Source of the DNA: a virus
Direction: 5' to 3' (one strand)
DNA length: 39,117 nt
IMG/VR virus record: IMGVR_UViG_3300010149_000051
Location: 1-39,117 of that record
Part shown: positions 2,222 through 32,310 of the stretch, in pieces
How positions within the stretch are numbered: position 1 is the stretch's first letter
Layout: every line of letters begins with the position of its first letter
Notes under the pieces: generated by a model
What the model saw: the letters and a program-made list of their open reading frames with translations, nothing else
Told to the model about the DNA's origin: nothing
Database searches by the model: none
Position numbers and translations under genes: made by a program

Positions 2222-2229
2222 ATTTAATC

Positions 2230-2288: not shown

Positions 2289-2302
2289 ATTGACATATTA
2301 GT

Positions 2303-3169: not shown

Positions 3170-3194
3170 AATAACAAAAACAGGAGACTAAGTA

Positions 3195-5636: not shown

Positions 5637-5978
5637 ATGGACTATTTATTATCAAATTATTTAGAAATACTGTGTATTTTGTTTTTTATTTTAGCGATTT
5701 TTTTCGGTTATTTTTGTATAAAATTTGCACTAATTATTGTAAGCATTCAAGATTCTATAGAAGAATGTCTTAATGTTATTGATGAAAAATATGCAAAAAT
5801 AACGGGTATATTAGAAATACCTTTGTTTTTTGATAGTCCAGAAATTAAAAGAATGCTTAGTGAATTAAAAGATGTAAAGCTTTCAATACTTTATATTGCA
5901 AATAGATTAAGCCCAAAAGACTTAAGATTTAAAGAAGAAAAGGAAGATAATGACAAATCAGACAGAAAAAAAGGCTAA
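5637..5978 (+). CDS. Small one-helix membrane protein
   Basis: A 113-aa protein with one strongly hydrophobic segment at about residues 8-36, then a soluble helical region and a charged tail ending KSDRKKG. No cleavage site is evident, so the segment is probably an uncleaved anchor. The ATG directly follows the TAG of the previous gene, with AAGGA (5622-5626) ten bases upstream, and the 3' end overlaps the sigma-factor gene by 29 bases. I recall small proteins with this plan (one N-terminal helix, then an acidic helical pair) near late-transcription genes in marine T4-like phages, but I cannot name a function. The single helix plus a long soluble domain is not the usual form of a holin. Confidence 0.6.
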   Translation: MDYLLSNYLEILCILFFILAIFFGYFCIKFALIIVSIQDSIEECLNVIDEKYAKITGILEIPLFFDSPEIKRMLSELKDVKLSILYIANRLSPKDLRFKEEKEDNDKSDRKKG

Positions 5979-11436: not shown

Positions 11437-11446
11437 AGGAAGTAAA

Positions 11447-13318: not shown

Positions 13319-16300
13319 ATGATTAGTTCTAAAAACAAATATGAAAACAAAAAAGTTTATAATCAGTTCAAAAACAGTGTAAACTCTTCAAATATTGCAA
13401 ATGTTGAAAACAATCCTAATCTAGAAATAAAAAGCTTTCTGGAATTATACGACCAAAATATTAACGAATACTTTGATAGACTTGACAGTTACGACGGTTT
13501 TTTTTCAACGCAACAAATTGAAAGCATAAATTTTGAAAATTTTGAAGAACACGTATTTTTTGATTCTGCAATAGAAAAAACCAATTATTCTTTTAAGAAA
13601 ATATTTAATGATTTTCCATACGATGGAAGTGAAAGAGAAGTCACAAACTATTTAAACGGTTTAGATGGTTATACTAGATTTATTTTAAAAAATAAACATC
13701 TTAAAAACCTCGGATATTTAAAGTTTGACAACAATCACTATGTTAAAATTGTTGATAGAAACGGATGGCTTTTAAACGATTTCCAGAAAAATATAAAAAT
13801 TGGAATTTTAAATTTAACAAATAATTTTAATTTTTCTTTTGATTTCTGGTTATATCCTTTTACTCCTGAAATAGTAGCAAATCAACAAATAATTTTTCAA
13901 AAAGTATTAAATGAATCAGGATTTAGCGTTTTTTTAGATAATTTTTCTGGTAGCAGCTGTGATTTAAACTTTTTTATTAGTAAAGGTGACATAGAATATA
14001 AGTGTACAACATCTATTGACGTTGATAAGTGGAGTCACGTTAACATATCACTTAACAGCATCTTGGTAGATGATTCAAATCTATTAAGATGTCAATATTA
14101 TATTAATAGTATACCAAAAAAAGCTGTTCATAAAAATACTGGTTGGGGTTTAACTTTTGGAGAAGATTTCAATAATGTTGATATTACGATGGGTGGAGGA
14201 AAATCACATAAAAATGAAGTTACTTCAGCTGAAAGGTTTTATTTTGGTTTAATAGATGAGTTTAGAGTCTATGCAGGTGAAGTCAGATCTAGAGAAACAA
14301 TAGCCTTAGAAAAAGATGAAAACATTTTTAGCAAACAAAGCTTAAAATTGTATTTTAGATTTAATGAGCCTTCTGGCGACTATACAAATAACAATATTAT
14401 TCTAGATCACTCAGGAAATAAACTTCATGGGCTTGTATATAAATCAAATGATAATGTAGAGGAAGACAAGCCTACAATTACTTCTCTTAGATCGAAGCAC
14501 TTAAATGTAAGCACGCCTTTAATTTATGAACTACTAGAAAATAATCCTGTTTTATTCCCCAATTTCAGTCCAGCAATAAATGTGCAAAACATAATAATTG
14601 AAGAAGCAAAAAATTATGACTTAAATAATCCTAATTCTTTTTGGAAGCTTTTTCCTAAAAATATTTTCGTAGAAGGCTCAGACTTTGACAACATAGATGA
14701 AACTTATATAAATAGCACCAAATTTACTGCTAAAAGTAAAGATACTCTTACTAGTATTAGAACTGCTCCTAATCAAAAAATGATTAACTTGTTATCTATA
14801 TGGGCAAGATTTTTTGATGAATTTAAAATATATATTGATTCAATTACAAATATTATTGATGTAAACTATGATAATTTAAATAACGATAAATTGATTGATG
14901 GAGTTTTACTACCATTAGCACTTAAATTGTCTGGATTTAATTTTAGAGAAATATTACCATATCCTATCTTAGAAAAGTTAAAAAATAAAAACTTGACACC
15001 TGAGGAAAGAGTATCAAGTCTTTCAATAAGACAAATTCAAAACAAACTCTGGCAAAGACTATTAATAAACTCAAAAGATATTTTAACATCAAAAGGCACG
15101 ACGTCTAGCATACATTCAGTATTTAATTCTTTCGGCTTAGAATCTTCAAAGTTTATTTCTATTAAAGAATTTAATGGTCAAAACAAATTTAATATTGATA
15201 ATAACTTTTATTCTAAAAAAATTAACTTTAAAGAAATCGATTTTTCTTGCGACAAAGAGCTTTTTAATGAATCTAGACTTGACAATAGAATTTCATTTAA
15301 ATCTCCAACTTACAATAATAACCTAAGCAATAACCCACTAAACATTTCTAATGAATGGGCTGTAGAATGCCTATATAGCTATAGACCTGATAGGACTGAA
15401 GCTTATCCCTTAAAACAATCATTGCTGAGATTAGATAACAATACAAGACCTAATCAATTTATAAGCTTTAAAAATCCTCATATTAATATTGTTTTTGTAA
15501 GAGAAAATAAAAAAAATAAGCATGGAAAAATAAAGTTATTTGTCAATGAAGGTATAATTGAAATTAAAGAAATTGATAAAGTTAATTTGTTAAGTGGCGA
15601 ATTGTTTTATTTAAACTTGCAAAGAAAAAAAATTAAAAACGTTAATAGCGACTTAACGTATTACGAATACATTTTGACTATTTCAAGCGTTTCAGAAAAC
15701 TTTTATTCAAAAAAAGTTCAACAAGCCAAACTAGAAACAAAAATAGACACTAGTTATAAAGATGCTCGACCAAATATTTTTTCTATTGGTTTTTATGACG
15801 CTTATGATATCTCAACTAGCGCTGACTTTATACCTGATATGTCGTATGAAACCAGGTTTGAAGGCAATATTTCTAATTTTAGAATATATAAGAAATCAAT
15901 GAGCAACAATGAAATATTCTTAAAATGCAAAACAATTCCTACAGTTGCTTTAGATGATGGTATCGAATCTGTTATACTTAATATTGACTTATTTGAAAAA
16001 TTAAGTGATATTAAACTTACTGGCTCTGTTTATGAAATAAAATCACTTTTAGATTTAAATCATAGTAAATTAAACGGTTTTAATAAATCAACTTTGTCGA
16101 TTGGGTCTTCTTTAACGTCATATTTTCCTTTTAAATCAAGAAAAATTCAAGGATTGATTCAGAATTCAGAAATAGATTTTCCAAAAAGCAACAATTTTAT
16201 CTATATAAACTCATTTGAAAGCGAAAAATTTAAAAAACAATACGGAAATGAAAATATTTCAAATATTAATCAGGTTAGACCTGACTATTTATATTCTAAC

Positions 16301-16771
16301 GATACCAGACTAAGCATAGACTTTTCTTTAGTTAACTTTCTTAATCAAGATATAACAAAAATAATAAATATAAATAAAACATTTACAGAAAAGCTTTCTC
16401 AAGCGTCAAATCTATTTACAGATTCTTATGTTGACTTAAATAGTCTTAGGGACAAGTATTTTGAAAGACTCGAGAAAGAAATTAATGTAAATGATCTATA
16501 TCAAGTTTACAAATATTTTGACAACGTCTTAGAAGAGCTGCTGTTTGAATGCATACCTTCTAAAGTTAAATATAAAGGATTTAATTTTGTATATGAGTCT
16601 CATGCTCTTGAAAGACACAAATATCAATATAAAATGATTAACAGTAATATTCCTGTTTTTGATGAAACGTTAAAACATAGTTATCATCGAGATCTAAGTA
16701 ATAGTATTGACCATCGTAAAACAGAAGGTAAAAATTCTTCTTTTGTAGAGAAAAACAAAGTGAGTAGATAA
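13319..16771 (+). CDS. Large baseplate/tail protein with two LamG-like domains
   Basis: A 1150-aa protein. Residues about 165-330 form a concanavalin/LamG-like sandwich: FSFDFWLYPF opening strand, DKWSHVNISL in the middle, and FGLIDEFRVYAGE as the closing strand. A second, more divergent one lies at about 675-850, ending GNISNFRIYKKSMSNNEI. Between them, near 590-625, is SKGTTSSIHSVFNSFGLESS. This resembles the 'KGT-x-x-S-I' segment of tail proteins that join the baseplate to fibres (gpI-like position). The ATG follows the previous stop with no gap, with AAGG nine bases upstream. LamG domains often bind glycans, so host recognition is plausible, but a purely structural role is equally possible. 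It may occupy the place of T4 gp7. Confidence 0.55.
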   Translation: MISSKNKYENKKVYNQFKNSVNSSNIANVENNPNLEIKSFLELYDQNINEYFDRLDSYDGFFSTQQIESINFENFEEHVFFDSAIEKTNYSFKKIFNDFPYDGSEREVTNYLNGLDGYTRFILKNKHLKNLGYLKFDNNHYVKIVDRNGWLLNDFQKNIKIGILNLTNNFNFSFDFWLYPFTPEIVANQQIIFQKVLNESGFSVFLDNFSGSSCDLNFFISKGDIEYKCTTSIDVDKWSHVNISLNSILVDDSNLLRCQYYINSIPKKAVHKNTGWGLTFGEDFNNVDITMGGGKSHKNEVTSAERFYFGLIDEFRVYAGEVRSRETIALEKDENIFSKQSLKLYFRFNEPSGDYTNNNIILDHSGNKLHGLVYKSNDNVEEDKPTITSLRSKHLNVSTPLIYELLENNPVLFPNFSPAINVQNIIIEEAKNYDLNNPNSFWKLFPKNIFVEGSDFDNIDETYINSTKFTAKSKDTLTSIRTAPNQKMINLLSIWARFFDEFKIYIDSITNIIDVNYDNLNNDKLIDGVLLPLALKLSGFNFREILPYPILEKLKNKNLTPEERVSSLSIRQIQNKLWQRLLINSKDILTSKGTTSSIHSVFNSFGLESSKFISIKEFNGQNKFNIDNNFYSKKINFKEIDFSCDKELFNESRLDNRISFKSPTYNNNLSNNPLNISNEWAVECLYSYRPDRTEAYPLKQSLLRLDNNTRPNQFISFKNPHINIVFVRENKKNKHGKIKLFVNEGIIEIKEIDKVNLLSGELFYLNLQRKKIKNVNSDLTYYEYILTISSVSENFYSKKVQQAKLETKIDTSYKDARPNIFSIGFYDAYDISTSADFIPDMSYETRFEGNISNFRIYKKSMSNNEIFLKCKTIPTVALDDGIESVILNIDLFEKLSDIKLTGSVYEIKSLLDLNHSKLNGFNKSTLSIGSSLTSYFPFKSRKIQGLIQNSEIDFPKSNNFIYINSFESEKFKKQYGNENISNINQVRPDYLYSNDTRLSIDFSLVNFLNQDITKIININKTFTEKLSQASNLFTDSYVDLNSLRDKYFERLEKEINVNDLYQVYKYFDNVLEELLFECIPSKVKYKGFNFVYESHALERHKYQYKMINSNIPVFDETLKHSYHRDLSNSIDHRKTEGKNSSFVEKNKVSR

Positions 16772-16775
16772 TAAA

Positions 16776-17855
16776 ATGGCAATACAAATAGTAAATATAG
16801 CATCTTCAAGAAACACAATATTTGTTGAGTCTAATAATGTTTTAATTAATGATGGGGTAATTGAAAATCAAAATGACTTAGACTTAATAAGTAATAACAA
16901 TAATACTTCTGATAGCTTTACATATACACAAAGAGGTAATAACAGTCTTTATTCTTTTAAATTTGCTTATAATAGTTTTCTTATAGACGAAGAAGTTACA
17001 ACAACACGTCATCAAGAAGAAATTAAAAGAGAACTTGGTAATGTTGAGAATATCAAACCTTTTTTTGAAACAAAAGAAAAATTTATTAGAAAAAAAGCGT
17101 GCTTAGTAAGAAAAAGCATTGGAAGTTTAAGAGCATTTGATGGAGACCTAACTTATTTAAAAAAAAGCAATAGACCGTTTTATGATAAAGTTAATCCTAT
17201 ACACGCAAGAAATTTTTTACTAGAAGACCTAGATGATCCAGATTTTGAATACCACTTTACATTTAACTATAGTGACTTTTATTTTAGAGGTGGAAGAATA
17301 GATGCATTTTCTAGAATTAGTAAGATCAAAATGGCTGAGGATAGCATTGATCAAATTAGAGGCTTTAAGTTTAACGGCTTTGGAAAAAGCAAAAGTCCTT
17401 TCGGGTTAAATAACACAGTAAATCAATTCTATAAAAAAGAAGACACAGGATTTTTTGCTTACAACGACAATATTGATGATGTTTATCTTGTAAACAATAC
17501 TTTTAAAAAAGTCATAAGTTCTATAAATTATACTTACAATGCTGATACAAATAAGTTTACTGAATCAACATCGACGACTTTTAAACCAGTTTATTCTTCA
17601 GAGGCTAGATTTTTTGACTTCCAAGAAAGTTTGTTACCTCCTTTTAAAGAAAGAACACAAAAAGAAAACTATAGTTGGATAAATTCTAATATTTATAAGT
17701 TTACTAATACTGATATTAATAATAATATATTGTTCAATAAAAGCAAAAATGACGATATTATTGAAGATATTATTTATGCCTCACACGGTAGAGATATAAA
17801 TAAAGAGTATAGTGCTGGTAGAGACTCAATTGGATTTTATGAGAGTATTGATTAA
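16776..17855 (+). CDS. Virion-block protein of unknown function, 359 aa
   Basis: I do not recognise the family. The protein is rich in Asn, Ser and aromatic residues and is mostly beta by eye. It has an Asn-rich stretch around residues 30-45, a basic region around 85-110 (EKFIRKKACLVRKSIG), and a Phe/Tyr-rich centre (FTFNYSDFYFRGGRIDAFSRI). No signal peptide, membrane segment or catalytic motif is seen. It starts four bases after the LamG protein, without a strong Shine-Dalgarno, and its stop overlaps the next ATG (TAATG). The two should be made in fixed ratio and may form one complex. Confidence 0.5.
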   Translation: MAIQIVNIASSRNTIFVESNNVLINDGVIENQNDLDLISNNNNTSDSFTYTQRGNNSLYSFKFAYNSFLIDEEVTTTRHQEEIKRELGNVENIKPFFETKEKFIRKKACLVRKSIGSLRAFDGDLTYLKKSNRPFYDKVNPIHARNFLLEDLDDPDFEYHFTFNYSDFYFRGGRIDAFSRISKIKMAEDSIDQIRGFKFNGFGKSKSPFGLNNTVNQFYKKEDTGFFAYNDNIDDVYLVNNTFKKVISSINYTYNADTNKFTESTSTTFKPVYSSEARFFDFQESLLPPFKERTQKENYSWINSNIYKFTNTDINNNILFNKSKNDDIIEDIIYASHGRDINKEYSAGRDSIGFYESID

Positions 17856-20572
17856 TGCCTAAAAAAAGAATAAAAAACTCAGGTAACATAAGTAAGTCAG
17901 GAACATTGACACAAAACTTTAGAAAAGAACTAAAAGTTGATAGTCACTTGAATAATTTTGTTCTCAGAGACGTATTTCACAGTCAAAACAAGAAAAATCT
18001 AGATAATATTGTTTTTGATGACTCTAAAACAATAGTTTTTAATAGCAAAGTTGTTAATGCTACTCTTGGAATAGAAAAATCTTATATTGAAGGTGATTAC
18101 TTAGAAAACAACAAGCTTGTTAATACACCAAATATTTTAGATCATGACAGTACTTATGAAGTAACAAAGATTGTAAGACCTGAAGATTATAGTCATGTCT
18201 TGTATTCAAACTATAAAAATGAGTTGAATAATGATAGACATGTCCCGTTTATTGAAGATTTTATAGATTATGAAAACATTTCCAGCGAAAATTTTGAAGA
18301 CCTTGTTGATCAAACAACAAGTTTTGAAGAAATTGGTTACAATTTCAAGAAAAAAGTACATGAAATTAAAAGAAACTTTGAAGAAATAGATATTTCTTTT
18401 AACAAAGGTTTTATTAATCTTTCTTTTAATCTAAACAATACAGTTGCTGAATATACAAATCCTACAAACAATGCATTTAAAGATCTTCCTTACGTTAGCT
18501 TTCCAAAATATGACAAAAGTTATAGTAATTCCATTCATCCAACTGATGAATGGACTTTTCTTTCACTGAATAGTAATACATTTTATTTGGACAAAAATAC
18601 AGTAAACAATAAAGATAATTTTTACTTTTTGCAAGATCCAAAGCAAAACTATTTTCAGTCAGCTGATAATTTTAGTAATTATTCACCAATAACAAATAAT
18701 CCTTTTACAAAGTATCCTAATGACGTTGTTGGCGCTAATTTAGACTCTTCAAACAGCAATTTTCCAAGTGATAATGAAAGAATGAGCAGTGTAAGATCGT
18801 TATCAAATCCTATTACAGACTTTGGTTTTCCATTTGATAAAAAGTATAGAGGAAATGATGAAGTAACAGTATCTTTAAGCGATTATATTAGTGAAGATTT
18901 TATTTTAGAAAAAGTTTATGTCGAATTTGACTTAAAAAACTATGCCATATCAACAGAAGAATTTACACCTTGTATAAACTTTTTAAACTTTTTTATATTA
19001 AATCAAAGAAAGTTTGTTGATACTAATAACTTGTCTTATTCTACCAGTTATGATAACGACATTAAACTACAAAAAAAGTACGATGGTTCAATATCTAATG
19101 TTAATTATTTAAAATATTTTGATAATGTTTCTGGTTTAGGATCTTATAAATTAACAAGAGTATCTAGCCCTTTAGCTTCTGAAGATCTTAAATTAGGTTG
19201 GGATGGAAATAGTCATCAACTTTACCCGAGTAGCTATTTCTGGATTGATAATACAAATACTTATGAAACTTATTCATCAAGCTTTAACGAGCACTGTCAT
19301 AGAGAGCTAATAACAAATATAAAAATTGCTAATGTAGGTAATATTATAAATGAAGAAGTTGCAAGTGCTAATAAAAATTATTTCTTTTCCTTAGACGGAG
19401 CTGATGCGATAATTACATCTGATCTTCCAAATTCCAAGCTTAACTCGTGGAATAGCCAAACTGTATATGATAATATATTAACAGACTGGAAAACAGTAAA
19501 AATAACGTCTAAAATAAAAAGTTATAATAAAAATTCATTATTAAAAAGCTTTAGTAAATTTGAAATATATCCTAAGCAAAGCAATAAAAGATCAGGTGTT
19601 GATGTTCAATCAGAAAGATCGATAGAAACTGAATTTGGCATTAACAATGTTGTAGGTGAGCAAGATCATCGATCTCAAAGATTTGACCCGGGTTACAGTT
19701 CTAACGTCAATCATATTACAAACCCCTACATTGTAAAGCCTACAGATGAATTAATATTTGGCTTTAACTTTGCGCCTAGTATGTTATTATCTGATGAGGA
19801 TCCTGTTGCAAATACAAATAATAGATATGCTAATTTAACAGGTAGAGATGTAATTAGTTTAGATTTAAGTAAATTAAAAATAAAACTTTTTGGAAGATAT
19901 GTTAGGGAACACAAAGCATTTGTTCCAAAAAAGAGTGAATTTGAAAACAAAAATATTAAAAAAATCAATGAATTATGCACAAACGTTGTTGATAAAATAG
20001 GTTTTCCTAACCCTTTTCTACTAAAAGGTGCATATTACAATTCTTTTACTTTTGGTTTAGCTCAATATCCAAATGCTTTTACAAATACATCACTTCCTAC
20101 AGGCCAAAACATGTCAGGCGTATTTACAAATACAGTCACAATTCCCCAAACCATACTTCAGGTTCCTTACGGATTAGTTGCGCTTAGCTTCAAGTATTTT
20201 CCGTCGTATGCTTTTGGTGCGCCTGAATATATTATTTATGAAGAATTAGTAGGAAATGATCGTGTATTAGATGACGTTATAAATAAAGTTAGTGGTGGTG
20301 ATTATCATTATAAAAGACATCATTATAACCCATCTCACTTTGGCTTTTTCTCAGATAAATTAAATGACAATAGACACTACGCTTATCTAGATAAAACAAA
20401 TTCTAAAACTACTTTTAATACGACTAAATTTTTTAGATTAAAAGGCTTTTATATACAAAAGGATCCAGCTGCCAATCCTCCTGGTAACGCTGTTGGAGAA
20501 GAACACAAAATAAATAGTTTTAATAAGGATATTCACTCAAGAGTTACAGATTCATTATTCAAAGAAGCTTAA
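17855..20572 (+). CDS. Large virion protein of unknown function, 905 aa
   Basis: Unrecognised in function. The first 300 residues are charged and Asn-rich with little sign of a fold. Near residue 315 comes NPITDFGFPFDKKYRG, followed by VTVSLSDYISEDFILEKVYVEFDL. I recall similar 'FGFPF-x-KKY' segments in very large structural proteins of marine phages, always without a known role. The C-terminal part includes GLVALSFKYFPSYAFGAPEY. It is beta-rich and aromatic, without membrane helices. GAGAG (17841-17845) may serve as ribosome site and the start is coupled to the previous stop. A role in the outer baseplate or side fibres is inferred from position only. Confidence 0.5.
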   Translation: MPKKRIKNSGNISKSGTLTQNFRKELKVDSHLNNFVLRDVFHSQNKKNLDNIVFDDSKTIVFNSKVVNATLGIEKSYIEGDYLENNKLVNTPNILDHDSTYEVTKIVRPEDYSHVLYSNYKNELNNDRHVPFIEDFIDYENISSENFEDLVDQTTSFEEIGYNFKKKVHEIKRNFEEIDISFNKGFINLSFNLNNTVAEYTNPTNNAFKDLPYVSFPKYDKSYSNSIHPTDEWTFLSLNSNTFYLDKNTVNNKDNFYFLQDPKQNYFQSADNFSNYSPITNNPFTKYPNDVVGANLDSSNSNFPSDNERMSSVRSLSNPITDFGFPFDKKYRGNDEVTVSLSDYISEDFILEKVYVEFDLKNYAISTEEFTPCINFLNFFILNQRKFVDTNNLSYSTSYDNDIKLQKKYDGSISNVNYLKYFDNVSGLGSYKLTRVSSPLASEDLKLGWDGNSHQLYPSSYFWIDNTNTYETYSSSFNEHCHRELITNIKIANVGNIINEEVASANKNYFFSLDGADAIITSDLPNSKLNSWNSQTVYDNILTDWKTVKITSKIKSYNKNSLLKSFSKFEIYPKQSNKRSGVDVQSERSIETEFGINNVVGEQDHRSQRFDPGYSSNVNHITNPYIVKPTDELIFGFNFAPSMLLSDEDPVANTNNRYANLTGRDVISLDLSKLKIKLFGRYVREHKAFVPKKSEFENKNIKKINELCTNVVDKIGFPNPFLLKGAYYNSFTFGLAQYPNAFTNTSLPTGQNMSGVFTNTVTIPQTILQVPYGLVALSFKYFPSYAFGAPEYIIYEELVGNDRVLDDVINKVSGGDYHYKRHHYNPSHFGFFSDKLNDNRHYAYLDKTNSKTTFNTTKFFRLKGFYIQKDPAANPPGNAVGEEHKINSFNKDIHSRVTDSLFKEA

Positions 20573-20592
20573 AGACTGAAAAGAGAATTTTA

Positions 20593-21639
20593 ATGGCAGG
20601 ATTTTTAGATAAAAAAAAGAGATTAATAGATTACAAGCTTTCTGAAGCTGGAAGAGAAAAACTAAGCACTGGTAATCTAGATTTTGCTTATTATACTTTT
20701 TCTGATAGGTCTGTTGTTTATAGTCAAAACTTAACTGGAAGTAATGGCTCAATTAAATCAGATTCTTTAGAATCTTTTATGCCATTTGAAGCTGATTCTC
20801 ATTTTAAAATTAAATTAAATCCAGACTTTTCTTTAAGTAGCACATTATCTTTTGAAAATTCAAATGTTACAAAACGTTTAGAATCTAAAGATAATTTTAA
20901 AAAAACCTTATCAGAAAAAATATTAGAGTTTCAATTTTTAGATAATGTTACGGTCAATAATAAAGTTGATAGAGAAGACAATATTTTTAGTTTTAAAAAT
21001 GTTTTTGAAGAATATGATTTTAGAAATCCATTGTTTGTCCAAAAATATCCAACTATTAAACAAGCTTCTGAGTCATTAAAATCTTTGCCAAACATAGGCA
21101 ACGAGGATAAAAGATTTAAACATTTTTTAAAAAATAAAAAGTTGGTTCCGGTAAGTAGCGATGGTTTTCCATTTGAAATACTCGACGAATCTGATGATGT
21201 TGATATTAATTTGATATTTAAAAACTTAGAAATAGAATCCTTAAACCTAGAAGATATTCCAAATAGAGAACAGCTAATAGTAAATGTATTAAACAGCTTA
21301 AATAAAAGTAATAATATTCTAAAGCTTGAATATGAAATACACGAAGACTTCGCAAAAGATAGCGATCAATATCTGTTTGAATTACATAATGCTGTATATG
21401 ACAAACCTAGTTCTGACCCAAATAGAAAAATAGAAAAATTAAAAAAGTTATTTTTTGTTAACCTAGGAAATTTTATAGATAATATACGTCAGGTTGAGTA
21501 TACCGTGTATTTAATAGGCAAGATACTAAAAAAGACTACTACTTTCGCTGAAGATGGTTTAAATCAAGCGAACAATATTACAGTTGCAGAATTTGATGAT
21601 TATGCTTTTGTAAATTTATTTACTTTGGTTGTTGAATAA
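20593..21639 (+). CDS. Virion protein with GFL...GRE-type N-terminal module
   Basis: A 348-aa protein. The first 45 residues (GFLDKKKRLIDYKLSEAGREKLSTG, then FAYYTFSDRSVVYS) align with the start of the 246-aa protein at 32374: the same GFL opening, the same I-x-D/L-x-x-GRE-x-L helix, and the same F-A-x-x-x-F-x-x-D-x-x-x-x-Y-S ending. The rest differs: a charged central region and two helical stretches at the C-terminus (IEKLKKLFFVNLGNFIDNIRQV). The module resembles N-termini I recall in marine phage structural proteins and may be a docking element. AAGAGA about ten bases upstream serves as ribosome site. The stop overlaps the next ATG. Function unknown. Confidence 0.5.
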   Translation: MAGFLDKKKRLIDYKLSEAGREKLSTGNLDFAYYTFSDRSVVYSQNLTGSNGSIKSDSLESFMPFEADSHFKIKLNPDFSLSSTLSFENSNVTKRLESKDNFKKTLSEKILEFQFLDNVTVNNKVDREDNIFSFKNVFEEYDFRNPLFVQKYPTIKQASESLKSLPNIGNEDKRFKHFLKNKKLVPVSSDGFPFEILDESDDVDINLIFKNLEIESLNLEDIPNREQLIVNVLNSLNKSNNILKLEYEIHEDFAKDSDQYLFELHNAVYDKPSSDPNRKIEKLKKLFFVNLGNFIDNIRQVEYTVYLIGKILKKTTTFAEDGLNQANNITVAEFDDYAFVNLFTLVVE

Positions 21640-24600
21640 TGAAAAAAGACATAATAAAAAAAATTGATATAGACGATATAGTCAAAACAGACACAGACTT
21701 AGTTATTCCTTTAGAAATAAAAACACAAAATGCTGTTAATAATAATGTTACACATGTAAAAATTGCAGTATTACCTCAAAAATTTAATACTACATATCAG
21801 CCTAAAGAAAATCTACCTAGAAATATTAATATCAATATAGATCACATTAACAATGATGAATCTCTAGATACAAATGAGATGGGTAGTAATCAAACCCCAG
21901 AGATAATAAGAAAAATATTCTCTAAAAACGTTGTTACAAATCTAATGCAAGATCGGTTTGAAAAAGAAAGAATATATTATCAAAAAAACAATGCGTCTAG
22001 ATTGCAAAAAATATTTGTAAGTATACCAATCAATACAATATTAAACGCTATAGCTTTCGTAGAAGAAATAAACGTTGGATCACAAGACTTTACAGTAGGA
22101 GGAATTCTACCTCATTACTTTTTAATTTACATGTTAGACAAAAATGACAATATTATTCAGTATCAAAAAGTAATGCCTCCAGAAAATCATAAAATTAGTG
22201 ATTACGCAGATGCTGATAGTGAAATAATTTTAGAGTCTTTCTTTGACGATATAATGAGTAATCTTGATATTAACTGGCAAAATCTCGAATTTACAAGCGA
22301 TCGTATCGACATATTAAACGGCCCTTTTCTTACTATAAATTATGACAATTTTTTCGATTTCATATTAAATAATTCAGCGTCTTCTAATAATAGTAATTTC
22401 AAGATAGATTTTATTGTAAAATTAGAATATGAAAATAATTCTTACATAGAAGATTTTATATCTACGTCATCAATAGCTTCTTATAGCAGTTTTGGTGATC
22501 CTAATGCAAAACAAAGAGCAATTAATTCTTTTAAAAATTCTTTTTTGGAAAATTTCGCTAGAGTTAAATTTGACGATGAAAATGAAGAATTGACTAGACA
22601 AAGTGCTTTAAATGTTAGCGATTTCTTTGAAAATAGATTTGTTTATAATTTATATAGATCTTTTGAGGAGCTCAATATAGAAAGCCAAGACGTAGAAATT
22701 ACGCTATCCTACAAAGATAAGTCCTATACTAAGAACATAAGAATAAATAAAGAAAATTTTTACAATTTTTATAGTCAATATTTAAAACTTAACAAAGAAG
22801 AAATTATACAAAAGTCTCTAGAAAATAAAATTAACATGAGCATTGTTTTAAATGACTTGGATGAAAATGTCAAAAAGCTAACGATAGATAAATTTAGTTA
22901 TTTTGATTTTTCTCTAACCGTTTTAAATGAAAACTCTAAAGTTAAAATTCAAAATGCAAAAGGCGCAGAAATAGAGGATTTGTTTTTTGACGACAATCAG
23001 ACAGATGGAAATAGTTTAAAAAGATATAAAGGTAATTCTTTTTTAATGTCATCAATTTTCAATAGCGAAAATAATACTTTTTACATTAATGATATCTCAA
23101 ACAATAATTTATATGAAATATTTTTTGATAATGTCAAAGTTTTTGAAGAAGCAATAATTGAAGAATTTCCTGATACAGAAGAAGACTCTAGCTATTCTGG
23201 TAATATACCAGGCATGTCTAACGTTAATCGACCAGATTTATATCAGCGTGTTGATACTAGTAAAAGACCAAATTTAAGAGGCGCATTTGGAAATTTAAGG
23301 CGACCTACAAGTAACAACTTACTGGAAAAACTAATTCAAAATGATACGTCAAATATTCAAAGAAACATTAAACAATCTATTACTACTAGCCTTAGTAAAG
23401 ATAATAAGCTGAGATTGGGTGTAAATCCAGATGCCTTAAAGACAAATTTAATTACTAACCGCTTAGGTGTTATACTTGACGATGGAACGTCTAGCACAAG
23501 CAGCACAACAAGACAATTATTACAACAAAGAGTAAAGAATAACTTATTTTCTTGCATTAAAGTATATAATACAGACGCTTATCGAAAATGTTTGTTTGAT
23601 TTTTATCGAGTATATAATGATCTAGATGATTTATCTGACTATAAACAAATAGACATAAACAGTTTTATTGAAAAAAACAATCGCGAGAAAGGTACAAATG
23701 TTTCTCTTTCAAGCTGTGTTGTTGAAGTTAAAAACTTTCTTTTTGACAATGATGTCCTTGTTAATCTTGGAAATCCTGGGACTGATGATTCTGTAAAAGA
23801 AAAATTATGTCAATTCTTGGTAGATCTAAAGCCAAAAAAATATCATCACATTATGAGAAAAATAAATAATTACTATTTTAATAGCAGCATAGATAAGGAA
23901 GACATAGTAAACAGCATTGGTAGCCTGATAATGTCTTCCAACGTTGTTAATCCGGTGGTTTTATCTAACTTGAATAACACAACAAATAATGAAAAAATTA
24001 CTATTTCTAAAAAATTTATAAATTCAAATTCAAGCTCAGCAATTAAAACAAAAGTTAATAGAGTTGCATTGGCAAGACCTAAATCATCAAACATCAAGAG
24101 TTATAAAAAAATTAAATCACGTAAAACTATAGACTATCTTTTTGACTTTGATATTAATAATATTGATAGTAAACAAGTTAAAAACAATATAACTTTTGAC
24201 ATAGACAGTTATAGATGTTTTAAGTTAAAAAGAAAAAAGAATAATTTAGAAAATTTATATGAATTAAATCTAGATGTAGAAAATGAACTATCTAAAATTA
24301 TAAAAGAAAGCAAATTTAGCTGCTTAAAGTTTTACAGTTTTTATAGTTTTTCTTTTTATAATAAAAACATCACAAAAGACTTTTCTAATAAAACAGACAT
24401 AAAAATAACACCTAATGGTTGCTTAGTTCATAAAGATTTTATAGATATTATATCAAATTTTAATTACAAAGTTGTTAATAATTCGCTGCTTATTGAAAAG
24501 AAAATAAATAAAACTTTAAAATTCAGTCAAGATTATCATGATTTAGTTGAAACGATATGGAATAGAAAAGAGAGAGTTGAAATAAAATCTATTGTCAACA

Positions 24601-24761
24601 GACTTTTAATCGAAGTAGTTTTAAAGTCAGGCGAAAAAGTTTACTATGCCACTAATTTTGATATTGAATACAATAAAGATTTTAATAGAATTAAAACAAA
24701 AAATAGTAAAAGTGATTTATTTATAGTTATAAATAATCCGAACATTTCTTTAGCGTTCTAA
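21639..24761 (+). CDS. Large virion-block protein of unknown function, 1040 aa
   Basis: No family recognised. By eye there are three parts. Residues 1-500 are alpha/beta with acidic character and several IPLEIKT- or FVSIPI-type strands. Residues about 505-620 are a Pro/Arg/Ser/Asn-rich linker (NRPDLYQRVDTSKRPNLRG) that looks disordered. Residues 620-1040 are helical then beta, containing four or more cysteines (for example LFSCIKVYN, KCLFDF, SSCVVEV, KLCQFLV) close together in sequence. Clustered cysteines are uncommon elsewhere in this block; disulphide or metal binding is possible but unproven. It is translationally coupled to its upstream neighbour (TAATG) and lies 16 bases before the 1962-aa gene. 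Confidence 0.45.
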   Translation: MKKDIIKKIDIDDIVKTDTDLVIPLEIKTQNAVNNNVTHVKIAVLPQKFNTTYQPKENLPRNININIDHINNDESLDTNEMGSNQTPEIIRKIFSKNVVTNLMQDRFEKERIYYQKNNASRLQKIFVSIPINTILNAIAFVEEINVGSQDFTVGGILPHYFLIYMLDKNDNIIQYQKVMPPENHKISDYADADSEIILESFFDDIMSNLDINWQNLEFTSDRIDILNGPFLTINYDNFFDFILNNSASSNNSNFKIDFIVKLEYENNSYIEDFISTSSIASYSSFGDPNAKQRAINSFKNSFLENFARVKFDDENEELTRQSALNVSDFFENRFVYNLYRSFEELNIESQDVEITLSYKDKSYTKNIRINKENFYNFYSQYLKLNKEEIIQKSLENKINMSIVLNDLDENVKKLTIDKFSYFDFSLTVLNENSKVKIQNAKGAEIEDLFFDDNQTDGNSLKRYKGNSFLMSSIFNSENNTFYINDISNNNLYEIFFDNVKVFEEAIIEEFPDTEEDSSYSGNIPGMSNVNRPDLYQRVDTSKRPNLRGAFGNLRRPTSNNLLEKLIQNDTSNIQRNIKQSITTSLSKDNKLRLGVNPDALKTNLITNRLGVILDDGTSSTSSTTRQLLQQRVKNNLFSCIKVYNTDAYRKCLFDFYRVYNDLDDLSDYKQIDINSFIEKNNREKGTNVSLSSCVVEVKNFLFDNDVLVNLGNPGTDDSVKEKLCQFLVDLKPKKYHHIMRKINNYYFNSSIDKEDIVNSIGSLIMSSNVVNPVVLSNLNNTTNNEKITISKKFINSNSSSAIKTKVNRVALARPKSSNIKSYKKIKSRKTIDYLFDFDINNIDSKQVKNNITFDIDSYRCFKLKRKKNNLENLYELNLDVENELSKIIKESKFSCLKFYSFYSFSFYNKNITKDFSNKTDIKITPNGCLVHKDFIDIISNFNYKVVNNSLLIEKKINKTLKFSQDYHDLVETIWNRKERVEIKSIVNRLLIEVVLKSGEKVYYATNFDIEYNKDFNRIKTKNSKSDLFIVINNPNISLAF

Positions 24762-24777
24762 GAATGGAAAAATTATT

Positions 24778-27700
24778 ATGTTACCAAGAACTGGTTATCT
24801 TGCTTCACAACAATCACTTATGGATCAGGCTGAGTCTGAAAATGAAAATGAATCTACCGAAGCTGAGTTAAATGCTTTATCACTCGGCGCTGAAAGTTTG
24901 TCTGGCAGAACAACTGGTAATTTATTTACGCCAGAGGTAAGTATAAACAATACTGTTGCTTCTGTTGTTGGAGGTATGAATACTTACGAAGCAACAGAAG
25001 TAAATAATGATGATTTAGGTAGAGAAAGTAATAGCAACTCACCAATTTCAGCAACAGCAGCGTTAATGGGAGATTACAATCCAGGAACAGATAATCCTGC
25101 ACGAGAAGCTGCTCAACAACCACAACAACAGTTAGAAACGCTAAGAAATGCAAGGCAAGATCGACCTTCTGAAGAAATTATTGAACGCATGCGTACTTTA
25201 GTGGAGCCGCCATCACCTTCAGCAAATGATGGCGAAGTTGATACTGCAATATTTAATTATTATAATGATAGAGCAGACTTGATAGAACTTCAGCAAACAG
25301 AAAGTGAGTCTTTTCTATACGATAATTTATCACTCAGTAGTTTAATAGAAGATTCTGATTCAAAACTTTTGCTTTTATCACACGAAAACTATAAAATTTC
25401 AATGCAACCAGAAAAAGAACTGTTTGGGAAAAAAGTTTTAGTTTCTAACGGATCTTTTATTAGTCCAGAACAGCTTTATTTGTTAAAAAAAGGTTATATA
25501 GAAAATAAACTAGAAAGCTTTAGCAATAGATATTTTCTTAAAGATGACAATTCAAAAAAGAGTCAATCTCTTTATTTACAAAATATTAAACAAAACAATG
25601 CTTTTAAAAAAAATTATATTACAAACATAAACAAGTATTTAAATAATAATTCAAAAAATATAAAAAAGTTTAATTTCGGAAATCAATTATTAAGTTATGC
25701 CAAGGACAATGAATACAGTAACTATTTTGGAAAAGTTGTTAATAAAGTATATAATAACAATACATATAATTCTACGTCTAGCTACACTAACAATAGCTTT
25801 AGCAACATAAACGAAATTACACATCACAATGTTTTTGATAAGTCGTATCATACAAATTTAAAAAGTACTTTAAAAAATTATTATAAGTTGAATTTAAATA
25901 TAGACGAAAATAGTAGTGATAGTTTTTTCTATAGAGACGACATATTAAATTCAAATGCAATCATTATGCAATGTTTGAATTTTTCAGCGTCATCTTTAAA
26001 AAATATTCATGAAGGTAGTTTTACTTCAATTAATTATGACAATACAAGTGATTTAAATTTTAGCCTATACGATACGCTTACAAACAATGCAACACTCAAT
26101 AGGGTTTCTATTCTTCCTTACTCGTTTAATTATGATATATTTAAGTCTAATCATAATAATCTAGATTTTACTTGTGCAGCATATACTAATACTTTAGGAC
26201 TAACAGATATTAAATTAAGTGCTAAAGAACGTAGTTTTAAGAGTAACAGCAATTATGTTTCTGAAAATTATAGTTCAGATAAAATACAAGTTGATCATTT
26301 TAAATTAACAAATATGCTCCAGCGATCTGAAAATTCTCAAAGTAAAAATTATTTGTTTAATTCTTTAAGGCTTGCAAACAACGAATCTACAGTTACTATT
26401 AAATATTTGCTGCAAGAAAATCACAATTGGTTATTTTCTGACCAATTTACAGAAATAAACGACCCAGAGATTTTATTAGACGATCAATTTTTATTTTTAA
26501 AAGATTATAACGAGATACTAGGTATCGACCCAGTAAATTATTTGCAGATGCAATACAATGTAATGGATACTGATGCTGTTATTTGCCAGATGAATCTCAC
26601 GATATCTGGTGAGGGTGGAAATACTTTTATATTAAATTGCTTTGACAATGAAAGTCAATTAAGAAATTACAGTGATTCAGAGACAAGTAATATTAAAAAG
26701 TATCTTAGCTGTCCGACATTTAACATGTTTCAGATGCATCAAGAGCAAGATGGTGTATATACTAAAGATACAACTTTTGATAATTTTTCAAATAATTATC
26801 TCGGTCATAAAAAAAGAAGTTTATCTTGCTATTTTAATAATCAAAGCATAAAAAGCATATTATCTAAGGCGGCGAACAATTCAGATGGAGTTTCACAAGA
26901 GATTGTGTCTTCTAAAATTTTTCCAGGTTTACTTAATTTTAATCAAAAAAAGTTTTCTGAATTGGACTCAAATAGAATAATGTTTGCATACGGTATCAAA
27001 CCAGATAGACATTATAATGATAATATTAATCCAGAAAATTTTTATAAAGATGAGTTATCTTATTTCATTGATAGAACTTGGTCAATCAAACAAAAAGAAG
27101 ACGACGTCTTAAGCGAAAACAAATCCGGTTTTGCCTACTCTCCTAGGAATTTAGATTTTAGACAGATAGGCTACGGAGGCGCTGCTGAAAGATTTAGTGA
27201 TGGGTCTGCATCAGGTCGCAATATATTAGACGAACTTGGAAGTTTTTTTATTGGAACAGAAAGTTTAGGTATAGAAAGCTATAATCAGTCTATACCGAGT
27301 ATTAAGAATGGCGAATATGCGCCTTTTGTTTTACTTAAAAATACAAACAAGGCGTATAACATTAAGTCATCTGATTTAAAAGACAAGTACTTATTAGATG
27401 AAAGTTTAACGACATCAGAAGAGTTATTCTATGATCGAGTACAAATTACATCATCAACAAGATCAAGATATTTAAGTGATGGTAAAAAAAATGTATTTAA
27501 AAAATATCAGAAATTGTCTGCGTGGAAAAGCGAAAAAAATAGCAAAAATAACTGGGTATATTCTGCATTTAAATTAAAAAGAGACTTATTTAGGATTAAA
27601 AAGAAAAAAATTGGAAGCAATAGTTTTTTAAATTTTTTAGAAGAAGTTAATAGAAAAAACAATAAACTGTTCAATAATAATAATAATAAATCAGTCTTTA

Positions 27701-30666
27701 GTTTAATTCATGAGGACAAAGAATTCGAAGGACAAAAATTATATTCTCTTGAAGAGAGTCCATTTTTAATTAAAAAAAGCGACAATGTATTTGTAGAAAA
27801 AAATAATTATAAAAATAGTTTTGATTCAAAAATATTAACAACAAATAGTGGTATTAATCTATTAAGTAACGACGAAGTAAGTGATCTAGAATCATTTACT
27901 AATATAAACGAATTTAAAAACTTTTTAAACGAATATTATCCAGAAAGCTGTCTTAAAAATAGTAGTAGTTTAATTCAAAAAATGTTTACTAATTTAACAG
28001 ACGTCTTTAATAAGTACACTAAAAGTTACATAAAAGATAATAAAGAAAAAACAGGCTTTGAAGATTTGATTGTTAGCTCTTTAATTTCTAATCGTGAAAC
28101 ATTTAATTTTTTATACTATGCCATAATTGAAAACAAATTCAAAGAAAGACAATTAAATGATGAAAGTAGCAATTTACCAGGAGAATTTTACAAATCAGAA
28201 AATTCTAAATCAGAAAATTTATACAATCAATACTTAACAAATATCTTTAAAACTGATAATGTTAAAAAACAGAATACCTTTACTTTAAGAGTTTTAGGCG
28301 ATAAATTCTTGTCAATAAACAAGTTACAAATGACCGGTGGACAAATTGTAAGAGATTCTACCAGATTTATTCATAATAATAGACATAGACGCGGCAATAT
28401 AAGCATAGTTGATGGTAGAATAAAAAACTATTTATTTCCGTATAAAGACTATGTATCTATTATTGGTAATAACATGGGTCCATTAGGGATCCCGGATGCA
28501 AATGCACCGGAGATTAATTTAACATGTAATTTAAAGTTTTTTTCTACTTTGCTTGCACAAACTACTTATAATTATGATGTATACTTACATTCTCAAAGTG
28601 AATCTTTATTTAACACAGAAAATATTGCAAATAACAGCTTAAACATATCTTGCAAATACATTGTTTTACCTGAAGTTGTGGGTGAAGGATATACATCTTT
28701 AATTTTTGATGGTAGTCTATTGAATTTAGGTAGTAGTACAAAAGAGTACAAACTTAGATCTTTTGTTAAATCAAGCATTGGCGCTGATAATGATATCAAT
28801 GGTGACGAATTTTATGAAAGATTGCCTGGAAGTCTTTTGTACGAAATATTTGAAACAGCAAAGTGGGATAAAGATTTTACTTTTGAATTAATTGAAGAAA
28901 AAGAAGAAAACAAAAAAACTTTTTTAGCATCACTAGCTAATCTAGTTGAAGAAATCCTAAATTACACTTTTACTAAAGATTTTTTAAAGGAGACAAAAAC
29001 TACGGATATTCTTAATGATAATATTTTTGATGATATAACAAACATAATTTTAGAATATGTTAAATTATACAAGAGCGAAAGTGATAAAATAAGAGAGCTT
29101 TCTATTTTTAAAAATTTAAATTCTCAAATTAGATCAAGATATACAGACGCATCTATGCAAAGTGATTTTACTTTTATACACTGGGACGATTCTGTAAAAA
29201 ATCAGATAATGTTGTCTTATACAGAAATTCTTGATATGTCTGGGCAAAGAGATTATAATATTAATAACTCTAATGAAAAATTTTCAGAAAGCGAAACAAA
29301 TATTTATAGTAATAGTCAGCAAGTAATTGACAATAAAAACATTCTAAGTCTATTTAAAAAATCAGATTATTTAGAAAGTTTAACGCATGATTTAATATTT
29401 GGATATTTACTAAACTTTGAAGATAATAAAACTAGACTTTTAGACACAAACAGAGAAAAACTAAATTTAGAAGAAGATATTAAAGAAAAAAGTCAAGAAA
29501 TAGTAAATATTCAAGGCGACATAAACTTTACAGACTTCTATTTTAATAGATTTAAAATTTGCAAGGCATCAAAGTTGATGCAAAACAAAGCGTATTACAG
29601 TATTGTTCAAGAAAGCAATATTGATGCTATAATAAGAAATAGAATTAGTAATTCTTTTGATAATTTCAAAATTTTTGAAACTAAAGTTAAATTTGAAAAA
29701 AACAAAAAAGAGTTAGCTGAACATGCTTTAGACAATTATTTTTTACCTAGAGAAGGTTTATCAGAAAGTTTTAATAAAATTGATATCTTAAGGTTTGGAA
29801 TAAATTATAATCTTGCTAATAGTTTAGGCGTAGATAAGATATTGGTGATATCAGTTTATCCTATTAATCACAAATATCCCGAAGTTAGAATTCCACACTT
29901 TGAATTTTTATATACACCTATTCTTACTGATATTATGCCTGCTTATTTAAATACTAGTGTAATTGGCGATTTAAATAATAAATTAGGCTTATATGATATT
30001 AATAGTCAAAGATTTGATTTGAAGTATAGATTAGCTGATGCTGGTGAGCAATTTCGTATTCTTTATACAATCCTACAAAATATTGAAGAAAAAAGAACAT
30101 TGTTAGGATTTGAAAAATCATTGAAAGCTACTTATGCTAATATAGAGCGTATTAAAACTGCAAGAAAAATATCAAATGCAATAAAGTATCTTAACGATTC
30201 TTATAATTCAGTATTTGATGATGCCAATATAAATGAACTGGATATAGACTTTGATAACATTATTTCAGACAAAACTAAAGTTCTTTTTGATGAAATAAGC
30301 GAAAACAGCTTTGACAACATATTCAGTGAGAGTAAAGAAGAAGTTGATGAATTTCTCATTGATCAAAATGGATATTTTGATCTTATTAATAAGAAACAAC
30401 AAATAGAAAAAAATATTCATTCAACAGAATTTTTCAAGAGCTTAGACGAAAATACGTCTAATCTAAAATTCCTGCAACCTATGACTAATGATTCATTTTT
30501 CGACATATTTTCTGTAAGAATATCTAGAGATGCTATTAGAAATGAAATTTCTGACAAATTAGAAAGCTTAACTGATCAATCTAGGAAAAATGAATTGTCA
30601 GAAATTTTAAGTGGAGATGATTTTAGTAATAGTTATTCCTATATAATACAAACAAAAGTTTTTTAA
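24778..30666 (+). CDS. Giant virion-block protein, 1962 aa, unknown function
   Basis: The largest gene in the window, 5.9 kb. Residues 1 to about 170 are low-complexity, rich in Glu, Gln, Asn, Ser and Ala and probably disordered. From about 180 to 1,400 the sequence is Asn/Ser/Tyr/Phe-rich and beta-like, with short poly-Asn runs (near 27,675). The last 550 residues are more helical and charged, with possible coiled coils (for example LNLEEDIKEKSQEIVNI). There is no internal periodic repeat of the kind seen in long tail fibres. Nor is there the long hydrophobic heptad pattern or membrane segment usual in tape measures. Its Shine-Dalgarno is weak. Options are a baseplate scaffold, a tape-measure analogue or an injected protein; I cannot choose. 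Confidence 0.5.
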   Translation: MLPRTGYLASQQSLMDQAESENENESTEAELNALSLGAESLSGRTTGNLFTPEVSINNTVASVVGGMNTYEATEVNNDDLGRESNSNSPISATAALMGDYNPGTDNPAREAAQQPQQQLETLRNARQDRPSEEIIERMRTLVEPPSPSANDGEVDTAIFNYYNDRADLIELQQTESESFLYDNLSLSSLIEDSDSKLLLLSHENYKISMQPEKELFGKKVLVSNGSFISPEQLYLLKKGYIENKLESFSNRYFLKDDNSKKSQSLYLQNIKQNNAFKKNYITNINKYLNNNSKNIKKFNFGNQLLSYAKDNEYSNYFGKVVNKVYNNNTYNSTSSYTNNSFSNINEITHHNVFDKSYHTNLKSTLKNYYKLNLNIDENSSDSFFYRDDILNSNAIIMQCLNFSASSLKNIHEGSFTSINYDNTSDLNFSLYDTLTNNATLNRVSILPYSFNYDIFKSNHNNLDFTCAAYTNTLGLTDIKLSAKERSFKSNSNYVSENYSSDKIQVDHFKLTNMLQRSENSQSKNYLFNSLRLANNESTVTIKYLLQENHNWLFSDQFTEINDPEILLDDQFLFLKDYNEILGIDPVNYLQMQYNVMDTDAVICQMNLTISGEGGNTFILNCFDNESQLRNYSDSETSNIKKYLSCPTFNMFQMHQEQDGVYTKDTTFDNFSNNYLGHKKRSLSCYFNNQSIKSILSKAANNSDGVSQEIVSSKIFPGLLNFNQKKFSELDSNRIMFAYGIKPDRHYNDNINPENFYKDELSYFIDRTWSIKQKEDDVLSENKSGFAYSPRNLDFRQIGYGGAAERFSDGSASGRNILDELGSFFIGTESLGIESYNQSIPSIKNGEYAPFVLLKNTNKAYNIKSSDLKDKYLLDESLTTSEELFYDRVQITSSTRSRYLSDGKKNVFKKYQKLSAWKSEKNSKNNWVYSAFKLKRDLFRIKKKKIGSNSFLNFLEEVNRKNNKLFNNNNNKSVFSLIHEDKEFEGQKLYSLEESPFLIKKSDNVFVEKNNYKNSFDSKILTTNSGINLLSNDEVSDLESFTNINEFKNFLNEYYPESCLKNSSSLIQKMFTNLTDVFNKYTKSYIKDNKEKTGFEDLIVSSLISNRETFNFLYYAIIENKFKERQLNDESSNLPGEFYKSENSKSENLYNQYLTNIFKTDNVKKQNTFTLRVLGDKFLSINKLQMTGGQIVRDSTRFIHNNRHRRGNISIVDGRIKNYLFPYKDYVSIIGNNMGPLGIPDANAPEINLTCNLKFFSTLLAQTTYNYDVYLHSQSESLFNTENIANNSLNISCKYIVLPEVVGEGYTSLIFDGSLLNLGSSTKEYKLRSFVKSSIGADNDINGDEFYERLPGSLLYEIFETAKWDKDFTFELIEEKEENKKTFLASLANLVEEILNYTFTKDFLKETKTTDILNDNIFDDITNIILEYVKLYKSESDKIRELSIFKNLNSQIRSRYTDASMQSDFTFIHWDDSVKNQIMLSYTEILDMSGQRDYNINNSNEKFSESETNIYSNSQQVIDNKNILSLFKKSDYLESLTHDLIFGYLLNFEDNKTRLLDTNREKLNLEEDIKEKSQEIVNIQGDINFTDFYFNRFKICKASKLMQNKAYYSIVQESNIDAIIRNRISNSFDNFKIFETKVKFEKNKKELAEHALDNYFLPREGLSESFNKIDILRFGINYNLANSLGVDKILVISVYPINHKYPEVRIPHFEFLYTPILTDIMPAYLNTSVIGDLNNKLGLYDINSQRFDLKYRLADAGEQFRILYTILQNIEEKRTLLGFEKSLKATYANIERIKTARKISNAIKYLNDSYNSVFDDANINELDIDFDNIISDKTKVLFDEISENSFDNIFSESKEEVDEFLIDQNGYFDLINKKQQIEKNIHSTEFFKSLDENTSNLKFLQPMTNDSFFDIFSVRISRDAIRNEISDKLESLTDQSRKNELSEILSGDDFSNSYSYIIQTKVF

Positions 30667-30675
30667 AGAGCTGTT

Positions 30676-32310
30676 ATGAACAAAACTTCTGATGCTATAA
30701 TTTCAATCAATACAAATAAAAAAAATGAAAGAAAAGTATTTGTAAACTTTGTATACAATAAATATTCAAAAAATGAAACAACACTAAATGATAATATTAT
30801 TTTAAATAGATTGAGGCAAAACAAAAATGATGTTAAAAATAATTTTATAAGACTCACACTTTCTCGAGAGATTGAGTTTGGTCTAGATGATGATTTGCTA
30901 GAGTTTACCCAAGATATTGAAGAAATATTTACTATAGCAGATATCAATAACTTAGATGAGATTGATTTAGCTTACTTTAATAGAATAAACAAATACAATA
31001 AAAAAAGAATATATCGTTTTTTAGAGTTAGACAATCAAGAAATCGAGTCAGGCGTTGAATATTTAACTCCTTATTTTGCTAATGATGAATCACAATTAGA
31101 TATAAGTAATATTAAAAAATCTTTAAAGTCTACATTAAAAATATCCATTCATAAAAATGAAAACTTAAATTTAAAAAAGTTGAATGACAATAAAATTTTT
31201 TCTGATAAATCTTTGTTTGCAAAAAAATTATTAGATGAAAACATCTTGTCAGATCAGTCTGAACGAATTAGCTCAGGTTTTTTGTTTGACATTTTTAAAC
31301 CTTTTAAATCAATCATAAATAATATCGGAGATACACGTAGTTTTAGTAAAATCAATGGTTTGAGATGTGGATTTTTATTAGAAAAATATAAATTAGAAAA
31401 CGATAAATTTACTAAAATTGCAGCAAAGTTTTTTACTAAAAAAAGAGGAGAAAATAATTTAAATAATTTACCGACTTTTATAGAAGATGAAGCTGTAAGG
31501 TATGGACAAACTTACAAATATGTACTAAGTGATGTTTATTTATATTCGTATCCTGATATTGAGAATAGATTTGTTTTAAATTCATATTTGTTTTGTGATG
31601 TTCCTTACGAAACTATAACTGTTGAATGCAGAGAAAACGTGGCGCCTCCACCTCCTATTAATATAAGTTTTATGTATGATGAAAATTTACGACAATTAAA
31701 AATAAACTGGGAAGAACCTAAAAACTACCAGCAAGATGCAAAAGGATATCAAATATTAAGAAGGTATAGTTTGGATGAACCTTTTGAATTAGTTAAGCAA
31801 TTAGAAGGGCATTCTGAGTTTGATGACTACAGACTAAATGAAATTATCTCTATAAACGATACAGTATATACACCTGACGATGTTAAATATGAATACATAG
31901 ATTTTACTTATAAACCTGGCGTTATTTCAATTTACGCGTTAAGGACAATTGATGCTCACGGCTTTGTGTCAGATTATTCTGCGCAAATGGCAATATTATA
32001 TGATCCGTTTGAACAAAAATTAATAGTTGATCTTGTTTCACTTCCAGGCGCAAAAAGAGACTTTCCAAACAGTATCTTGAGAAGCAAAAGTATATTTTTT
32101 AAAAATAAAAACAGCATAGTTGAAAAACTTCCTATTGTTAAGAATCCTAGCAAGATAACTTTACACATAACTCCTGAATTTGCAGCGATAACAAAAAATG
32201 ACAAAAGCGACCTAACGCTTGATGAAGAATATCAGTTTACAATAACCAAGTTAAATAATATGTTAATTTATAAGCAAAATTTTAAAATTAAGAATTTTAT
32301 TATTTCTTAA
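30676..32310 (+). CDS. Virion protein with fibronectin-III-like domain
   Basis: A 544-aa protein. Residues about 322-440 look like a fibronectin type III sandwich. A Pro-rich entry (APPPPINISF) is followed by LKINWEEPKNYQQDAKGYQILRR, the usual 'W-x-x-P...Y-x-(I/V)-x-R' pattern. Then comes a paired-strand region ending ISIYALRTIDAHGFVSDYSA. The segment before it (VRYGQTYKYVLSDVYLYS) may be another beta domain. The N-terminal 200 residues are charged and helical. Such domains are common in virion surface proteins, where they bind carbohydrate weakly or act as spacers. It begins nine bases after the giant gene and is followed by the longest gap in the virion block. No enzymatic motif is visible. 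Confidence 0.55.
   Translation: MNKTSDAIISINTNKKNERKVFVNFVYNKYSKNETTLNDNIILNRLRQNKNDVKNNFIRLTLSREIEFGLDDDLLEFTQDIEEIFTIADINNLDEIDLAYFNRINKYNKKRIYRFLELDNQEIESGVEYLTPYFANDESQLDISNIKKSLKSTLKISIHKNENLNLKKLNDNKIFSDKSLFAKKLLDENILSDQSERISSGFLFDIFKPFKSIINNIGDTRSFSKINGLRCGFLLEKYKLENDKFTKIAAKFFTKKRGENNLNNLPTFIEDEAVRYGQTYKYVLSDVYLYSYPDIENRFVLNSYLFCDVPYETITVECRENVAPPPPINISFMYDENLRQLKINWEEPKNYQQDAKGYQILRRYSLDEPFELVKQLEGHSEFDDYRLNEIISINDTVYTPDDVKYEYIDFTYKPGVISIYALRTIDAHGFVSDYSAQMAILYDPFEQKLIVDLVSLPGAKRDFPNSILRSKSIFFKNKNSIVEKLPIVKNPSKITLHITPEFAAITKNDKSDLTLDEEYQFTITKLNNMLIYKQNFKIKNFIIS

Follow-up and report, generated by a model that had tools for sequence, protein, structure and literature searches.

A conserved six-gene cassette between the wedge and fibre genes of uncultured T4-related phages as a putative outer layer of the tail tip

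What is encoded by a run of five consecutive, tightly packed genes that lie in the baseplate region of a T4-related phage and resemble no recognised family? The DNA analysed here, referred to as the window, comprises the 39117 bases of an IMG/VR record, with 27% G+C. ORF calling exactly recovered the genes of 359, 905, 348, 1040 and 1962 aa that an earlier note had described. They are all located on the + strand, span positions 16776–30666 and are joined by junctions of -1, +20, -1 and +16 bases, in agreement with the claimed overlaps or gaps of at most 20 bases. Two of them are mid-sized (359 and 348 aa), while the note had counted only one. It had further placed the five between a gp25/gp6 baseplate core and a fibronectin-III (FnIII) protein. 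The baseplate setting was confirmed, but the genes S8 (629 aa) and G7 (1150 aa) intervene after gp6. The FnIII-like gene at 30676–32310 does not lie behind the unit but is its sixth member. The five ORFs are thus A to E of a six-gene cassette, A-B-C-D-E-F, at 16776–32310.

The order in the window is gp6, S8, G7, A-B-C-D-E-F, H and I, which is that of the cassette family, with all genes on the + strand. Upstream, a gp25-like baseplate wedge protein of 160 aa (9076–9558) matched PHROG 261 and 43 (baseplate wedge, E 2.2e-6 and 5.2e-5) as well as Pfam GPW_gp25 (2.9e-5). The gp6-like wedge protein of 624 aa (9562–11436) gave a tblastn match of 2e-37 to a 'baseplate wedge protein' of Flavobacterium immuto, and its profile matched PDB 9f4a, 'Baseplate wedge protein gp6', with 3.3e-6. 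S8 (11429–13318) has homologues at the equivalent site in L007–L015. The wedge-like G7 (13319–16771) forms the upstream boundary of the cassette and carries a LamG (ConA-lectin-like) domain (Laminin_G_3, E=1.2e-9). Homologues of G7 were detected by profile in Microcystis phage Mel-JY01, in immuto and in LR756508, and from its position G7 is a putative gp7-equivalent. Its best PDB matches were pentraxins, but these cover the LamG region only and a pentraxin relationship was rejected. The downstream boundary is the adaptor-like H (246 aa, 32374–33114), whose family also occurs in Mel-JY01, immuto and RM378 and, in cultured relatives, has the wedge genes on one side and the fibre genes on the other. 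It is followed by the fibre-like I (416 aa, 33125–34375) and J (1017 aa, 34390–37443). Both share a C-terminal segment of ~80 residues with five Mel-JY01 paralogues, possibly a common attachment or trimerisation domain; the five paralogues are consecutive. J also has a weak LamG match (4.7e-4) below the Pfam cut-off. The window ends before the capsid genes, and the sheath gene likewise lies outside it.

Relatives of the cassette were reached only via the gp6 profile and then the C profile in IMG/VR. In 50,697 named phage records, tblastn found nothing for A, B, D and E and one chance match for C, and no A-F member was found among these records. Single-protein IMG/VR scans with P0005, P0002 and P0001 yielded no relatives either. 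With gp6, tblastn against the named records found Mel-JY01, four Flavobacterium immuto records and two uncultured huge-phage records. The gp6 profile scan of IMG/VR returned 80 loci, including L007, L009 and L015, which extend into homologues of A and B and, for L015, also of C. In the neighbouring DNA, the whole A-F series was found in G003 and G001 and a version with shorter genes in G002. The C-family scan added 80 further loci on contigs of up to 322 kb. The recurring order is C (about 300–400 aa), D (about 650–1200), E (about 900–2100), F (about 500–700), H and I, with F confirmed by HMM in most loci with sufficient contig extent. C-D-E-F was uninterrupted in 64 of the 85 C-bearing contigs, a set that includes near-duplicates or the same contig found twice, and most of the others are cut by contig ends. 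Together with the fixed order G7-A-B-C-D-E-F-H-I, this counts for a structural cassette, and the contiguous, tightly coupled large proteins of the earlier note are indeed a conserved unit in the baseplate/fibre gene block. As each of the positions A to E is filled by a homologue or positional equivalent in relatives down to 25% identity, the ORFs can be regarded as real genes.

The six members differ in how far they can be traced. A (359 aa, 16776–17855) lies between G7 and B and could be linked to homologues within window-type phages only (24 members including the window). B (905 aa, 17855–20572), C (348 aa, 20593–21639) and F (544 aa, 30676–32310) of the window showed homology by HMM to proteins at the same position in distant cassettes. 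Relatives of B reach about 2900 aa, although part of this length range may stem from fused or mislabelled genes, since the B HMM overlaps G7 in L161 and L162. LamG was detected in the B proteins of L161 and L154 (2.1e-19 and 2.3e-15); for A15, the count was two of 19 members. D (1040 aa, 21639–24761) and E (1962 aa, 24778–30666), the largest protein, are syntenic in complete cassettes. For E, hhalign linked the window-type and other-group families through their C-terminal regions (P=93.6%, E=2e-7), while no link was found for D (P=0.3%), which is therefore equivalent by position only. Family F has 66 members, and its FnIII call follows a sequence pattern, as Pfam FnIII was matched in only one of 41 members; a comparison for a shared FnIII between D and F was not significant (P 6.6%). 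C and H were recovered by one HMM, and the 54-member alignment of C (A13) matched the H family over the N-terminal ~80 residues (hhalign P=95.1%, E=3.4e-8); the two are paralogues.

PHROG and Pfam scans of A-F gave chance-level matches only, in line with the claim that the five genes lack a recognised family. Two candidates were rejected: for family A, weak and short matches to influenza haemagglutinin (E about 0.003) that involved no protein other than this heavily sampled one, and a T6SS VipA match of D (0.002), which occurred in one member only and was taken as noise. Compared with G007, identity was 25% for A, 24% for D and 27% for E, while gp6 reached 52% and H 53%. This makes A, D and E the fastest-evolving genes of the block. 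Such divergence is expected for peripheral parts, but equally fits loosely constrained scaffold proteins.

The place of the cassette could be defined by comparison with phages that lack it. Like the window, Mel-JY01 (PP395634) and vB_FspM_immuto have the order gp25, gp6, one or two genes, a G7-like gene, H and fibre-like I paralogues. Unlike the window, A-F are absent, and G7 and H are only 64 bases (Mel-JY01) and 1271 bases (immuto) apart. In total, 19 cassette-less contigs, which include these two and the 484-kb LR756508, have H close behind G7 at 39–1271 bases, whereas in 17 contigs the distance is 11.1–19.4 kb and is filled by (A-)B-C-D-E-F. For two of the 17 (L137 and L138), the profiles did not pick up D and E. 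In the maximum-likelihood phylogeny of G7, the 24 sequences from cassette carriers are separated from the 16 without a cassette by a single branch, which has 100% support. The cassette state changes once on this tree, and none of 500 shuffles gave a number as low. The tree does not prove whether this was a gain or a loss, given an unknown root and some long branches that join. In addition, cassette carriers are over-represented in the sampling, as C served as bait in one of the scans. On the deepest cassette-side branch (L132, L143) a smaller gene set was found, and L133 has two shorter genes at the position of E, which hints at a stepwise growth of the cassette.

C-D-E-F-H-I was also found away from G7 and B in many contigs, where its neighbours are PhoH or other genes. 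A PhoH-like gene is situated directly upstream of C-D-E-F, apart from gp6 and G7, in L134, L150 and L163, and judged by gene sizes L148, L158, L166 and L170 have the same arrangement. The module therefore need not contact the wedge; functionally, C-F may form a tight unit together with H-I, while A-B would be closer to G7.

The reading we favour is that A-F are a clade-specific structural cassette of a large group of uncultured T4-related contractile-tailed phages and putatively form an outer layer of the virion at the junction of wedge and adaptor/fibre; we consider it rather probable. An outer baseplate or fibre-attachment layer is suggested by the position between wedge and fibre genes, the C-H paralogy and the LamG-bearing neighbours. 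It is further favoured by the divergence of A, D and E, by the lack of any transmembrane-like segment in A-F (maximum hydropathy over 19 residues 1.41 or less) and by a separate tape-measure candidate in G007. Points against it are the copies of C-D-E-F-H-I that stand apart from G7 and B, and the failure of profiles to link the window-type D to the D of other cassettes. A-F would form an additional layer between the wedge, made up of gp6 and G7 with its LamG domain, and the adaptor and fibre proteins H, I and J. C would dock like its paralogue H, while F, and probably B, would be surface proteins. D and especially E may serve as large scaffolds or levers that widen the periphery of the tail tip and could hold or deploy host-contact parts. 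The enlarged outer baseplate or host-contact apparatus of the earlier note agrees with this insofar as cassette-bearing and cassette-less states differ exactly at the wedge-to-fibre junction, but not in its beta-rich description of the largest protein.

This description was at odds with the predicted structure. AlphaFold2 was applied to the 1187 aa E orthologue of L128 in place of the window protein, which at 1962 aa was too long. The model (pLDDT 66, pTM 0.65) contained 47% helix and 13% strand and, at moderate confidence, appears unlike a beta-helical fibre. Foldseek gave no match at E<=1e-3 for it in BFVD and PDB, and the best Z was 3.9 or less. The model of C had a mean pLDDT of 67 and was confident in the C-terminal part only; for it, BFVD and a renewed check of PDB candidates yielded nothing beyond cystatin at Z 2.0, which was taken as no match. 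The fold comparison to T4 gp7-gp12 and fibres covered these two models (Foldseek, VIA) at moderate confidence; the absent matches should not be read as new folds. Searches of the A-F profiles against PDB sequences gave no baseplate or fibre match at E<=1, while the gp6 control was found, but divergent relatives could be missed. The claim that the block has no recognisable T4 counterparts therefore stands for PDB-sequence profiles and for the folds of the two models, with divergence as a possible cover for relatives. Compared with the T4 outer wedge (gp7-gp12) and long tail fibres, the cassette occupies the same functional neighbourhood beside gp25 and gp6 homologues, but its proteins are larger and lack a profile match to PDB baseplate or fibre proteins.

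A more far-reaching reading would take A-F as an undescribed tail organelle, a large and in part mainly helical outer apparatus on the contractile tail of a major group of uncultured aquatic phages. Its proteins would have new folds, and its single origin in the clade would lie in an insertion at the wedge-to-fibre junction together with a duplicated H adaptor. We regard this as a tentative option.

The helical model also bears on the suggestion that the cassette specifies another tail-fibre system of its own, similar to T4 gp34-gp37, in which D and E would be the proximal and distal shafts and C and F the hinges or adaptors. The cassette adjoins the fibre genes H-I-J, its sizes form a series like that of a multi-part fibre, C resembles the adaptor-like H, and D and E diverge fast. 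However, the E orthologue is unlike the trimeric beta fibres, Pfam found neither a collagen-like nor a chaperone domain in A-F, and fibre-like genes, as judged from their sequence, are located elsewhere in G001 (31700–43541). A second fibre system is thus rather unlikely. That A-F are non-virion accessory genes, such as effectors or assembly factors, which lie in the tail operon by chance, is more doubtful still. The cassette is known here from genes alone, and assembly factors occur in tail operons; yet six genes have stayed adjacent and in one order in phages that diverge strongly, C is related to the presumed structural protein H, and the sizes are far above those of typical assembly factors. 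Least likely, the baseplate operon would include an internal tail protein (tape measure or ejected protein) in the form of D or E. E is longer than any other gene, its length ranges from about 900 to 2100 aa and its orthologue is helical, but A-F lack transmembrane-like segments, G007 has a 1254 aa gene at the usual tape-measure position after the sheath and tube genes about 50 kb away, and E is present or absent with the baseplate-side cassette and not with sheath or tube, so that E is probably not a tape measure.

The structural cassette favoured here is carried by phages with contractile tails. The sheath family PF04984 was found in six of eight cassette-bearing records and also in the MAG of L193, under the same contig number. 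The relatives also have gp25 and gp6. With gp25 and gp6 in the window and the sheath seen in relatives only, the window phage is assigned to the T4-type contractile-tailed phages. G001 and G007 suggest T4-type PhoH, terminase, portal, protease and capsid genes, as read from the sequences and not scored against libraries. In Far-T4 phages, an uncultured clade, PhoH has been described close to the structural genes (Roux et al. 2015, PMC4360716), and Far-T4 viruses were linked to marine Bacteroidetes (PMC7198788). In the relatives, an ORF judged from its sequence to be PhoH-like accompanies structural genes, upstream in G001 and G007 and adjoining C in L134 and L150, while there is none within the window. 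The cultured Far-T4 reference RM378 has two proteins of the H family, but no recognisable C, D, E or F; one of them gives a weak C match through the N-terminal domain common to C and H. The two, Rm378p129 and Rm378p127 (L180 15567–18148), flank the 416 aa p128 and are annotated as hypothetical.

An independent C-D-E-F-H-I copy was found in a Halobacteriovorax MAG (L193, PBIO01000013.1, a 109-kb contig), where positions 1–20741 hold a complete C-D-E-F-H-I-J-RuvC-primase-SbcCD-like block. As binning errors are common, this is only a weak hint at Halobacteriovorax, a bacterial predator, as host.

Several carriers have long sheath-like genes. G007 (L185–L187, 153 kb) has three of 1034, 1479 and 1079 aa close together around a tube-like gene of 162 aa (reverse complement, 99408–110910), of which only the first matched the sheath profile. 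Two sheath-like ORFs of about 1000–1190 aa each occur in the jumbo contigs G009, G010 and G011 and in the L193 MAG. All of them are much longer than T4 gp18.

A baseplate/fibre block of a contractile tail is a known kind of locus, to which the cassette is an unusually large, uncharacterised and clade-specific addition. It is the mark of a clearly delimited branch of T4-related phages from aquatic habitats, some of which exceed 300 kb. Should the cassette belong to the virion, a tail type that is widespread would contain several thousand residues of unknown structure in each repeating unit. Across the two sister groups, G7 and H lie either close to each other or 11–19 kb apart, and this matched pair of states opens the question to a direct test.

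Upstream of the tail block, the window contains a run of glycosyltransferase-like genes (371–5636), including paralogues of 410 and 402 aa; a small ORF at 2021–2221 resembles a truncated gene of this type. It is followed by a 242 aa protein (5950–6678) with weak similarity to late sigma factors (PHROG 234, E 0.044), which is kept at the same site in Mel-JY01, immuto and LR756508. Directly before gp25, a 650 aa gene (7070–9022) showed 85.9% identity to contig L005, while the adjoining genes were 99–100% identical. It thus appears to be a hypervariable or recombining gene between near-identical phages.
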